Below, one piece after another: positions 7,999-12,233 of a stretch of DNA of 48,956 nucleotides. The notes beneath the pieces were generated by a model that saw only the letters and a list, made by a program, of their open reading frames with translations, ran no database searches and was not told the origin of the DNA. Position 1 is the first letter of the stretch, and each line of letters opens with the position of its first letter. This stretch comes from Vulcanimicrobiota bacterium (GTDB lineage Bacteria > Vulcanimicrobiota > Vulcanimicrobiia > Vulcanimicrobiales > Vulcanimicrobiaceae). The stretch is taken from contig PMSI01000006.1 of NCBI GenBank assembly GCA_003168375.1, positions 1-48,956 on the forward strand. Reading direction: 5' to 3'. The position numbers were made by a program, and so were the translations under genes.

Positions 7999-9000
7999 AT
8001 GCTGCTGCTCGGAATCGAGACGTCGTGCGACGACACCGCGACCGCGGTCGTCGACGAGGGCGTGCGCGTGCTTTCGAACGTCTCGACGAACCAGGACGAA
8101 TTCCACGCGAAGTACGGCGGGATCGTCCCCGAGATCGCCTCGCGACGCCACGCCGCGCTCCTCTCCGCAGCGGTCGACGACGCGCTGACGCGCGCCGGCG
8201 TCACCCTCGACCAGCTCGACGGAATCGCGGTGACGGCGGGGCCTGGGCTGATCGGAAGCCTCGTCGTCGGCGTCGCCGCAGCCAAGGCGCTGGCGTTCGC
8301 GACCGGTCTGCCGCTGTACGCGGTCAACCACTTGCACGGGCATCTCTTTGCGGCGTTCCTCGAGCGGGCGCAGCCGCCGGAGTATCCGTTCCTCGCGCTG
8401 CTGGTCTCGGGCGGGCACTCGCAACTGGTCGAGGTCGCGTCGCCGACAGCGCTGCGCGTCATCGGCAAGACGCGCGACGACGCGGCCGGTGAAGCCTTCG
8501 ACAAAACGGCGCGGCTGCTCGGACTTCCGTTTCCCGGCGGTCCCGCGCTGGAAGCGCTCGCCCGAGACGGCAATCCAAAAATGTTCGCGTTCCCACGCCA
8601 CCGCCCGGATCCCGGCACGCTCGACATGAGCTTCTCCGGCATCAAGACGTCGGTGCGCTATTTCCTCGAAACCGACGCCGGGAAGCGCGCGCGCCGCGAG
8701 GACGTCGCCGCATCGTTCCAGGCGGCGGTCGTCGACGTGCTGATCGACCGCGTCGCACGCGCAGTCGATAGGGCCGAGTACCGCGCGCTCGTGCTGAGCG
8801 GCGGCGTCGCGGCGAACGGCGCGCTGCAATCGGCGTTCGTCGCACTCGGCGAGCGACGCGGCATTCCGACGTTCATCCCCGAGCGCCGCTTCTGCACCGA
8901 CAACGCCGCGATGATCGCCGCCGCCGCCGAACGTCGCGCCGGCGTCTGCCGCGTCGACCCGATAACGCTCGTCGCCGATCCGAACTTGCGCTTCAACTAG
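7999..9000 (+). CDS. tsaD: tRNA threonylcarbamoyladenosine transferase TsaD
   Basis: Catalytic subunit that transfers threonylcarbamoyl to A37 of ANN-decoding tRNAs, working with TsaB and TsaE (not in this window). The 333-residue length is normal. The ASKHA-fold opening LGIETSCDDTATAVV, the metal-binding HLHGH motif, the SGGHSQLV loop, and the C-terminal GGVAANGAL and FCTDNAAMIA segments are all present. It follows the AlkZ-like gene and ends 4 bases inside the convergent GNAT gene. Confidence 0.96.
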   Translation: MLLLGIETSCDDTATAVVDEGVRVLSNVSTNQDEFHAKYGGIVPEIASRRHAALLSAAVDDALTRAGVTLDQLDGIAVTAGPGLIGSLVVGVAAAKALAFATGLPLYAVNHLHGHLFAAFLERAQPPEYPFLALLVSGGHSQLVEVASPTALRVIGKTRDDAAGEAFDKTARLLGLPFPGGPALEALARDGNPKMFAFPRHRPDPGTLDMSFSGIKTSVRYFLETDAGKRARREDVAASFQAAVVDVLIDRVARAVDRAEYRALVLSGGVAANGALQSAFVALGERRGIPTFIPERRFCTDNAAMIAAAAERRAGVCRVDPITLVADPNLRFN

Positions 9001-9512
9001 TCTGCGAGCAGCGCCCAGCGCTCGTGATCGCGCCAGGCGCCGTCGAGAAACAGGTAGGCCGGCGAGAAGCCTTCCTTGGTGAAGCCGGCGCGTTTGACGA
9101 GCGCGATCGAGCGCGTGTTGCCGGGCTGGATGTTCGCTTCGACGCGGTGCAGTCCGAGCTCGGCGAACGCGACGCGCACGGCGATCTGCAGCGCCTCCGA
9201 CATCAAGCCGCGGCCGCCGGTATGCGCGTACCCCCAGTAGCCGAGATAGGCGCTGCGGAAGACGCGCATCGTGATTTCGTTCACGTTGATCACGCCGACG
9301 ACGTCGTTGGTCGCTGCCTCACGCGCGATCAGCGCGACGCTGGGCCCCGTCAGACTGCGCTCGAACCAAGCATCGAACCCCGCCTGATCGGTGAAGCCCT
9401 TCTCCCACGGCGCATGGTAGTCGACGTTCTCGCGGTTCAGCGCGATCAGCTCGGCGGCATCGGCGCGGCGCACGCGCCGCACGACGACGCGCGGCGCACT
9501 GGGATCAGGCAA
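8997..9512 (-). CDS. GNAT N-acetyltransferase, RimJ/RimL type
   Basis: A 171-residue acetyl-CoA-dependent acetyltransferase. The RimJ/RimL layout is clear: an opening strand with VVRRVRRADAAELIALN, the acyl-CoA pyrophosphate loop within GYAHTGGRGLMSEALQ, then LGLHRVEANIQPGNTRSIAL and a closing GFTKEGFSPAYLFLDGAWRD. Targets in this family include ribosomal protein N-termini and amino-group drugs; none can be assigned here. Its start overlaps the stop of the upstream DsbA-like gene by 8 bases, so the two are probably co-transcribed. Confidence 0.88.
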   Translation of the reverse strand: MPDPSAPRVVVRRVRRADAAELIALNRENVDYHAPWEKGFTDQAGFDAWFERSLTGPSVALIAREAATNDVVGVINVNEITMRVFRSAYLGYWGYAHTGGRGLMSEALQIAVRVAFAELGLHRVEANIQPGNTRSIALVKRAGFTKEGFSPAYLFLDGAWRDHERWALLAD

Positions 9513-10056
9513 TGCTGCCGTGCTCGAGGAGATAGTCGATCGCTTGCGAGAAGTTCGCGAGGGTCGCTTCCTCTTCGAATAGGACGTCGTTCAAGAAGAA
9601 CGCCGGCGTGCCGGGGATCCCGCTCGCTTCGCCGCTCTCCTTCCGCTCCGCGACGATCCCCGCGTACGTCCCGTCGCGCAGCGCGTTCGCCAGTGCATCG
9701 GAATCGAGACCGAGGTCCCGCGCGTATCCCAGCAGGTGGCGGACGTCGAGCGCGCGCTGATGCTCGAACAGCATGTCGTGCAGCTCCCAGAACTTTCCGG
9801 CGTCGGCCGCGAACTCCACCGCCTCGGCTGCGGCCTCCGCATGCGGGTGCATCGCAAGCGGGAAGCTCCGGAACACCACCCGCAGGCGGTCGCCGTAGTG
9901 TTGCTCGAGCGCCTTCACCACGCCGTAGGCGATCCCACAGTACGGGCATTCGAAGTCCCCGTATTCGACCAAGGTCACCGGTGCGCCGGATGGGCCGCGC
10001 ACGTGATCGTCGGGTCCGACCGGGACGGCGAGCCGGGTCAATCCGTCGTCTTCCAT
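9505..10056 (-). CDS. DsbA-family thioredoxin-fold protein, cytoplasmic
   Basis: A 183-residue thiol oxidoreductase of the DsbA/2-hydroxychromene isomerase group. The active-site motif CPYC is at Cys37/Cys40 after VTLVEYGDFE, and the cis-proline strand is GIPGTPAFFLN. There is no signal peptide, unlike periplasmic DsbA. I chose ATG 10056, which has AAGGA just upstream, over TTG 10074, which overlaps purN. It lies 7 bases after the purN stop and overlaps the downstream GNAT gene, so it belongs to the purM-purN transcript. Confidence 0.87.
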   Translation of the reverse strand: MEDDGLTRLAVPVGPDDHVRGPSGAPVTLVEYGDFECPYCGIAYGVVKALEQHYGDRLRVVFRSFPLAMHPHAEAAAEAVEFAADAGKFWELHDMLFEHQRALDVRHLLGYARDLGLDSDALANALRDGTYAGIVAERKESGEASGIPGTPAFFLNDVLFEEEATLANFSQAIDYLLEHGSIA

Positions 10057-10063
10057 GCGATCC

Positions 10064-11188
10064 TTATCGTTCAAGAGTCCAGCGCCGAATCGCTGCCGGG
10101 ACCGCCCCGAACTCGGCCGGGCGAACTCGCTCGCGCAGTTCTTCCTCGGTCGTGGCGTCTCCGACCGGCACCGGCACCCGGACCAACACCTCGCCCCGAT
10201 CGGTGGCGTCGGTCACGTAGTGGACGGTCGCACCGGTCCAGGCGCTCCCGCCCCGTAGCGCGTCGCGCAGCGCGTGCGCGCCGCGCAGCGCCGGGATCGA
10301 GGTACCGTCCGGCACGATCACCTCGTCCGCCGCCGGGTCGAGCGGCAAGAACGACGGGTGAACGTTGATCGTCTCGGGGAAGCGGCGGAGAAACGCGCGC
10401 GGGAGCAGGTGCATCCAGCCGAGCAACAACACCAGCTCCGGCTCCGTGTCAGCGAGCCGCTCGATGAGCCGCGTGTCGTAGTTCGGCCGCGACTCGTGTC
10501 CGCGGTCCCACCCGACGCAGATCGCGTCGACGCCGTGGTCGCGCGCAGCTGCGAGCGCGCCCGAGCCGGGCTGGTTCGCGATCACCGCTGCGACGTCGAG
10601 CGGCAGCGACCCAGCGTGCACGCGTTCCAGCACGTTGCGCGCGTTCGTTCCCGCCCCGGAGGCCAGGATCGTCGCACGGAAGCGGCGGCCGTCGTCATAG
10701 CCGAACTCGTCGACGACCACCGCGCCGGTGCGCTCCATGTAGCTCGCGATCAATCGTTCGCCGCCGGCCGCCGGGATCAGCGCCGTCGTGTGACCCGCTG
10801 CGCGCAGCGAGCAGAGTGCCGCCGCGAGGAGCGGCTCGCCGATCCCCGCTTTGCGGTGCGCCGGCGCCACGCCGTACGGCCCGAAGACGCCGACGTCGGC
10901 GCGGTCGCGCCAGCGCCGCAGCCAGGGGAACCGCAGCCCGCGCGCACCGAACGCGGCGAACCCTGCGATCGCGCCGTCGCGCTCGGCGACCCACGCGCTG
11001 CCGGCGCCCGCCTCGTACGACCACCACGACGGCGCGAAGTGGTAGTCGATCCAGGCCGCGAGCAGGCCGTCCGCGCCGTCGACGCGGCGCAGCGCATACC
11101 CGGCGCCCGCTGCGGCTTCGTGGGCGCGCGCGAGTGCGCCGCCGCCGTAGCGCTCGTCATCGAGCGCGGCGAGCAGGTTGACCGCCAT
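10064..11188 (-). CDS. purN: GNAT domain fused to PurN (GAR transformylase)
   Basis: A 374-residue two-domain protein. Residues 1 to about 168 form a GNAT-like acetyltransferase domain with an acyl-CoA loop at 106-120 (GVAPAHRKAGIGEPL). From about 170 the protein is PurN, phosphoribosylglycinamide formyltransferase, which formylates GAR using 10-formyl-THF. It opens ATILASGAGTNARNVL and keeps the catalytic Asn275 and His277 (NVHPSFLP) and Asp330 (TDATDRGEV), equivalent to Asn106, His108 and Asp144 of E. coli. PurN alone is about 210 residues. ATG 11188 is 7 bases after the purM stop. The open frame continues upstream into purM, but with no domain sequence. Confidence 0.88.
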   Translation of the reverse strand: MAVNLLAALDDERYGGGALARAHEAAAGAGYALRRVDGADGLLAAWIDYHFAPSWWSYEAGAGSAWVAERDGAIAGFAAFGARGLRFPWLRRWRDRADVGVFGPYGVAPAHRKAGIGEPLLAAALCSLRAAGHTTALIPAAGGERLIASYMERTGAVVVDEFGYDDGRRFRATILASGAGTNARNVLERVHAGSLPLDVAAVIANQPGSGALAAARDHGVDAICVGWDRGHESRPNYDTRLIERLADTEPELVLLLGWMHLLPRAFLRRFPETINVHPSFLPLDPAADEVIVPDGTSIPALRGAHALRDALRGGSAWTGATVHYVTDATDRGEVLVRVPVPVGDATTEEELRERVRPAEFGAVPAAIRRWTLER

Positions 11189-11195
11189 CGCGGTT

Positions 11196-12233
11196 TTAAG
11201 CGGTGCGCACGGGACGGACGATGACGCGCGGATCGCCGTCGCGCCGCGGCTGCACGAAGCCGACGACCTTTGCGCCGGGCGCCGCACGCAGGGCTTTGTC
11301 GACGTCGGTCATCGGCACGATCAGCGTGTAGCCGATCCCCATGTTGAGCGTGCGATAGCGCTCGTCGTGCGCGAGGTTGCCGCGCCGCACGAGCTCCGCC
11401 ATGATCGGCGGCACCTCCCAGCGTGTTTGTTCGAACACCGCCGCCGCGTGCTCGGGCAGCGTGCGCGGCACGTTCTCGAGCAGGCCGCCGCCCGTGATGT
11501 GCGCCATCGACTTCACGCCGGCGACGTTGCGGATCGCACGCACGGGTTCGAGATACGAAGGGTGCGGTGCGAGCAGCGCGTCGCCGTACGTCGTGTCGCC
11601 GAATTGCGCAGCGTACTCGTCTTCGGCGATCAGGGTCCGCGCGAGCGTGTAGCCGTTCGTGTGCAGCCCGACGGCCGGCAGCCCCACGATCGCGTCGCCC
11701 GGGATCACGCGGTTGGGATCGGGCATCGCGTCGATCTCGACCAGGCCGACGATCGTGCCGGCGAGGTCGAAGTGCTCGGGACTGTAGACGCCCGGCATCT
11801 CCGCGGTCTCGCCGCCGAGCAGCGCGCACGCGTTCTCGCGGCAGGCGCGATGGACGCCGGAGACGATGAGCGCCGCGACCTCCGGATCGAGTTTGCCGAC
11901 CGCGAGATAATCCAGGAAGAACAGCGGGTCCGCGCCGGTGACGAGAATGTCGTTCACGCAGTGGTTGACGAGGTCGGCGCCGACCGTGTCGTAGCGCCGC
12001 AGCGCGGCCGCAATCAGGATCTTCGTACCGACGCCGTCGGTCGACCCGACGAGCGCACGCTTCGGGTCGCCCGGGAGCCGGAAGAGCCCGCTGAAACCTC
12101 CTAGGGAACCGAGCTGGTCGGGATGCGTCCACGCGGAGGTGACGTCCCGATACCGCTGCACCGCGCGGTTGCCCGCGTCGATATCGACCCCGGCGCGCGC
12201 GTACGCATCGCCACGGCCCGAGCCGCTGGTCAC
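11196..12233 (-). CDS. purM: Phosphoribosylformylglycinamidine cyclo-ligase
   Basis: AIR synthetase: closes the imidazole ring of FGAM using ATP. The 345-residue length is normal. The family motifs are all present: the opening YARAGVDIDAGNRAV, the ATP-site loop VGSTDGVGTK, the segment NDILVTGADPLFFLDY, the GGETAEMPGVY loop and the C-terminal MAHITGGGLLENVPR. The GTG start at 12233 has no clear Shine-Dalgarno because a dispersed repeat occupies 12239-12266. It leads the purM, GNAT-purN, dsbA-like, GNAT cluster and is divergent from pepA. Confidence 0.96.
   Translation of the reverse strand: MTSGSGRGDAYARAGVDIDAGNRAVQRYRDVTSAWTHPDQLGSLGGFSGLFRLPGDPKRALVGSTDGVGTKILIAAALRRYDTVGADLVNHCVNDILVTGADPLFFLDYLAVGKLDPEVAALIVSGVHRACRENACALLGGETAEMPGVYSPEHFDLAGTIVGLVEIDAMPDPNRVIPGDAIVGLPAVGLHTNGYTLARTLIAEDEYAAQFGDTTYGDALLAPHPSYLEPVRAIRNVAGVKSMAHITGGGLLENVPRTLPEHAAAVFEQTRWEVPPIMAELVRRGNLAHDERYRTLNMGIGYTLIVPMTDVDKALRAAPGAKVVGFVQPRRDGDPRVIVRPVRTA

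Follow-up and report, generated by a model that had tools for sequence, protein, structure and literature searches.

A GNAT-like acetyltransferase domain fused to the purine biosynthetic protein PurN in the bacterial family Vulcanimicrobiaceae

The PurN protein of a Vulcanimicrobiota bacterium carries a GNAT-like domain at its amino terminus, and comparison with related genomes has confirmed that this arrangement is a genuine, conserved fusion. The gene was found on a contig of 48,956 nucleotides (PMSI01000006.1, assembly GCA_003168375.1), the whole of which is referred to here as the window; its domains and neighbouring genes are listed in Table 1. The architecture is unusual for a bacterial PurN, and represents a new combination of known domains. 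In the reading that we favour, to which we assign a probability of roughly one half, the protein consists of an ordinary PurN and a separable GNAT, the latter being a predicted N-acetyltransferase with its own amine acceptor that would act independently of formyl transfer.

Table 1. Features of the GNAT-PurN fusion gene and of its surroundings (positions in the window)
Feature	Position	Strand	Basis and remarks
GNAT-PurN fusion gene	10064..11188	minus	open frame (374 aa, ATG start, read 11188 down to 10064), Pfam matches to both domains, fused homologues
GNAT half, residues 1-160	10709..11188	minus	Pfam Acetyltransf_1; AlphaFold model; VIA-align
Acyl-CoA loop, R112-K-A-G-I-G117	10838..10855	minus	conservation across fused loci
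Short linker, ~residues 161-169	10680..10708	minus	low model confidence
PurN half, residues 170-374	10067..10681	minus	Formyl_trans_N, TIGR00639, fold match
~17-residue insert, about residues 284-300	10289..10339	minus	alignment with stand-alone and E. coli PurN
purM	11196..12233	minus	TIGR00878, 338 bits, over cut-off; 7-base gap upstream of fusion gene
DsbA-like thioredoxin-fold protein	9505..10074	minus	Thioredoxin_4, 9.9e-23; overlaps end of fusion gene by 11 bases
Second GNAT, RimJ-like, unrelated to fused GNAT	8997..9512	minus	Acetyltransf_3, 1.8e-21; last gene of run

The original prediction, made from the DNA letters of the window, had placed a GNAT-like domain in frame with a complete PurN, and had proposed a search with GNAT profiles and a survey of homologues for the same fusion. 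Both domains were found by Pfam where they had been placed, with Acetyltransf_1 matching residues 46-137 (6.5e-7, above the gathering score) and Formyl_trans_N matching residues 172-366 (6.2e-30). Acetyltransf_1 is also matched by 70 of 77 homologues. The frame stays open in relatives at 71-96% identity, and thus the ORF does not contain a frameshift or a missed stop. The chance that neighbouring genes were merged by an error of assembly or gene calling is negligible, as 64 loci, which come from many separately made assemblies and include one in a gap-free isolate genome, share an identical open frame, and dN/dS is well below 1 (~0.05-0.5) in the GNAT and PurN halves alike, with similar values for the two in most pairs. 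Such a number of open fused loci rules out an artefact or a frameshift as the source of the fusion.

The survey of homologues covered 149 genomes of the window's phylum, Vulcanimicrobiota (Eremiobacterota). In the window's family, the Vulcanimicrobiaceae (f1), about 35 of 38 sampled genera carry the same fusion, and nearly every genome possessing the gene has it in the fused form. The alignment used below comprises 64 fused loci, including that of the window. One carrier, the gap-free isolate genome G119, belongs to the same genus as the window and is putatively Vulcanimicrobium alpinum WC8-2, which would place the fusion in a cultured species; the chromosome of V. alpinum WC8-2 has 3,508,363 bases (PMC9758169). 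For G120 and several other f1 genomes, only Met-tRNA-formyltransferase-like matches and no PurN were seen; these are drafts of 63-94% completeness, and they reflect either incomplete assembly or a lost pathway. In the sister families f2 (4 genomes) and f3 (14 genomes), PurN has a gene of its own that mostly lies directly after purM, and a stand-alone GNAT, ~40% identical to the GNAT half and unlinked to PurN, is encoded by 4/4 f2 and 10/14 f3 genomes. No second copy of the GNAT was seen in f1, except for weak matches.

Outside the phylum, no GNAT-PurN fusion was detected among 1,334 genomes sampled from four other phyla (396 Actinomycetota, 398 from the phylum of a Eubacteriales genome, 297 from that of an Acidobacteria genome, and 243 from that of a Euryarchaeota genome). 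Here, scoring was confined to the best candidates of each genome, and the three phyla besides Actinomycetota were searched with an E-value limit of 1e-46, which could miss a very divergent fusion. The fused protein of G035, which is not part of the alignment, scores 5.6e-109, far better than this limit. Within the literature library covered, no paper on a GNAT-PurN fusion was found. The premise that PurN usually has one domain is correct for bacteria, but not for animals, where PurN is part of the trifunctional GART. In the eukaryotic protein (PurD-PurM-PurN), PurN is likewise one domain of a larger protein, yet its partners there are enzymes of the pathway, whereas the partner here is a GNAT.

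Both domains are complete. In the PurN half, Asn275, His277 and Asp330, the three residues singled out in the original prediction, are invariant in 64/64 fused loci and align with the catalytic residues N106, H108 and D144 of E. coli PurN. The best NCBIfam match of the fusion protein is TIGR00639 (PurN, 3.4e-38), although the score misses the equivalog cut-off (131.1 versus 150.1 bits); no rival equivalog scores higher. The unfused PurN of G128, a genome of the same genus, is also under this cut-off, and the shortfall is thus due to the PurN of the lineage (its insert and divergence) rather than to the fusion. In fold comparisons, solved GAR transformylases are the closest folds, with Z scores of about 20-22 (for 3AUF, Z 22.2 over 195 residues at 2.8 A). 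The bacterial PurN proteins 3AUF, 1GAR and 3DA8 share the fold and the same catalytic Asn/His/Asp with the PurN half, whereas the fusion adds the N-terminal GNAT and a ~17-residue insert, and has GWMH in place of the bacterial GFMR in the folate-side loop. The insert, with the consensus DPxxDxVxxPDGxxxPxFRG, directly follows the catalytic HPSxLP motif (HPSFLP in the window), and adjoins the position of a mobile loop in E. coli PurN. It is found in the PurN of most of the phylum, fused or unfused, which rules it out as a product of the fusion.

The genomic context is that of a purine biosynthetic gene. The fusion gene adjoins purM, as does bacterial PurN, and upstream on this strand the window also contains a purF-like gene (with amidotransferase and phosphoribosyltransferase domains), purD and guaA. 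The genome also holds purH, just under its cut-off, in addition to purD. The fusion is the only PurN in the genome of the window, since the other weak PurN match has the length and the partial match expected for Met-tRNA formyltransferase or a similar protein. PurT was considered as a back-up GAR transformylase and rejected, as no PurT over cut-off is present in this genome and the best PurT-like match is PurK. Given a sole PurN, an adjacent purM and a PurT-like gene that is PurK, the fusion very probably provides the working GAR transformylase of the cell, as judged from gene content.

On the other side of the fusion gene (8997-10074), the DsbA-like gene that overlaps its end is itself overlapped by the RimJ-like gene, whose product resembles S5-alanine N-acetyltransferase but is below the NCBIfam cut-off. 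Matches to these two genes were observed only next to fusion genes from the window's genus.

In the GNAT half, an acyl-CoA loop had been anticipated within residues 106-120, and the motif R112-K-A-G-I-G117 indeed lies there. Position 112 is Arg or Gln in 64/64 fused loci and G117 is kept in 63/64, while the middle Gly is variable. Y150 is kept in 61/64, and W46, D48, F51, W56 and E59 are each conserved in more than 90%. An AlphaFold model of residues 1-169 alone (pLDDT 85) was matched by VIA-align to residues 146-315 of 5KGA/5KF1 (Z 12.6, 157 residues, 4.4 A), followed by RmNag 4ZM6 (Z 12.2) and a Sphaerobacter GNAT, 3TT2 (Z 12.1); matches within 1 Z were counted as tied. The nearest solved folds are the C-terminal halves of tandem GNATs, and the profile search agrees, the best matches by both approaches being the C-terminal domains of C. 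acetobutylicum GlmA (5KF1, 5KGA) and R. miehei RmNag (4ZM6). Unlike these tandem proteins, the fusion has a single GNAT, ~15-20% identical to them, that is preceded by a relict-like strand. The fold match starts at residue 1, so that this strand (residues 2-8) is the counterpart of the final strand of the first domain in tandem GNATs. In L064, a double GNAT of the phylum, a similar strand, YNLVCDL, lies between the two domains.

This resemblance does not extend to the amino-sugar site. Tyr297 of GlmA (mutated in 5KGH) has its counterpart in Tyr150, but the catalytic Asp287 (mutated in 5KGA) and Trp288 of the aromatic sugar platform correspond to Pro139 and Ala140, and the position of Asp287 is occupied by Pro, Ala or Gly across the family. 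The active GNAT domain of RmNag uses glucosamine, not its phosphate (PMC4680927). With the catalytic Asp and Trp of GlmA not conserved, a glucosamine acetyltransferase assigned by homology was rejected, and amino-sugar activity should not be transferred to the GNAT half.

Closer relatives are the stand-alone GNATs of the sister families (L048-L061), which share ~35-41% identity over the entire GNAT half and the common motifs W..F..W..E, GIFGPxGV and R..G.G, but are encoded by a separate gene unlinked to purine genes. They lie beside genes for EPSP synthase and a peptide-binding protein, beside GH125, AstE-like and MFS genes, or beside SecD/SecF, and no purine gene was recognised beside them in the f2 and f3 neighbourhoods. 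As a clue to the substrate these surroundings were discarded, because the three neighbourhoods have nothing in common. The absence of a purine neighbourhood speaks against both roles suggested in the original prediction, a tuning of formyl transfer and the acylation of a purine intermediate. In the second of these, the GNAT half would act next to PurN on an intermediate such as GAR or phosphoribosylamine, or else on some competing side product. Such a role would suit a domain fused to PurN and placed between purM and purN, with nearest solved relatives that acetylate an amino sugar (PMC4680927), but we consider it improbable, since acetylation of GAR would divert the pathway, Asp287 and Trp288 of the GlmA glucosamine site are not conserved, and the GNAT domain is dispensable in G128.

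The trees fit a single fusion followed by vertical descent. In PurN trees, the stand-alone f2 and f3 sequences group together (99/99), and in GNAT trees, fused and stand-alone GNATs are split (100/99), with the exception of the long-branched double GNAT L064, which has the longest branch in the tree and is of unsure placement. The pairwise identities of the GNAT and PurN halves are correlated (0.73). The order purM-purN is kept in fused and in most unfused relatives of the class, and thus the simplest history is a single insertion of a GNAT between purM and purN in the f1 ancestor. Judged by such comparisons, the fusion is old and has been passed on vertically, and purifying selection acts on its GNAT half, which is nevertheless dispensable in some lineages.

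The clearest case of dispensability is G128 (L120, G128:C119), in which PurN comes directly after purM and the intervening GNAT sequence is missing. This PurN is nested deep among the fused sequences (97/94 with L009), and the GNAT half was therefore lost secondarily, or the locus was mis-assembled in a draft that is 73% complete. A YDD remnant is seen ahead of the PurN start. In other lineages the GNAT half has decayed while the PurN catalytic residues are intact. For instance, the CoA loop is gone from L116 (G035:C30), though the GNAT domain is still present, L108 has Gln at both CoA-loop positions, and further conserved GNAT residues are missing from L106, L010, L114 and L115; several of the decayed halves are on long branches of the GNAT tree. 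Such cases are what would be expected if the fold were retained as a structural or solubility domain, on which PurN had come to depend for its folding or oligomeric state: in G035 the domain outlasts its CoA loop, and five further lineages (L108, L114, L115, L106 and L010) have lost at least one key residue, with longer GNAT branches in several. This explanation is nonetheless unlikely, as the CoA loop and Tyr150, needless for a mere scaffold, are conserved in the great majority of loci, and the PurN of G128 is entirely without the GNAT half.

The reading of an ordinary PurN joined to a separable acetyltransferase would account for these observations as follows. In the f1 ancestor, a pre-existing single-gene GNAT would have ended up directly after purM and in frame with purN. 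The PurN half would make formyl-GAR as usual, while the GNAT half would bind acetyl-CoA or another acyl-CoA and N-acetylate an amine acceptor of its own, with Tyr150 as the general acid. With Pro139 at the position of Asp287, acetyl transfer by the GNAT half would need another base, or none. That the two halves are separable follows from the G128 PurN, which lacks the GNAT. The fusion would tie the amount of GNAT to purine synthesis through shared expression, and not through channelling. However, an operon already provides shared expression, which therefore does not by itself fully explain why the fusion is retained, and its maintenance in about 35 genera suggests that the physical link brings some benefit.

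One such benefit would arise if the GNAT half regulated GAR transformylase in response to acetyl-CoA, or worked as an enzyme coupled to it, a proposal that we regard as possible but doubtful. As a sensor, the GNAT half would bind acyl-CoA, with or without catalysis, and regulate PurN according to carbon status; the fusion would then be the first PurN with activity tied to acyl-CoA supply. Conservation of the CoA loop where the catalytic Asp position is Pro, Gly or Ala is consistent with a sensor, as is linkage maintained across so many genera. On the other hand, Tyr150 is kept, and so are W46, D48, W56 and E59 of the putative acceptor site, as in unfused relatives, which suggests catalysis; in some lineages, moreover, the GNAT half is gone or has decayed although PurN is intact. 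The linker is modelled at low confidence (pLDDT <50 for residues 161-166) and contact between the domains is not evident, the full-length AlphaFold model (pLDDT 72, pTM 0.50) being too weak for judging inter-domain contacts.

The probable presence of the fusion in a cultured strain would make these alternatives testable, and the coexistence of fused, unfused, domain-deleted and domain-decayed versions constitutes a rare natural experiment. It allows one to ask whether genes of central metabolism are fused because their functions are coupled, or whether the join is neutral and persists through shared expression. GNAT-PurN is a domain architecture that an entire bacterial family has fixed in its purine pathway.
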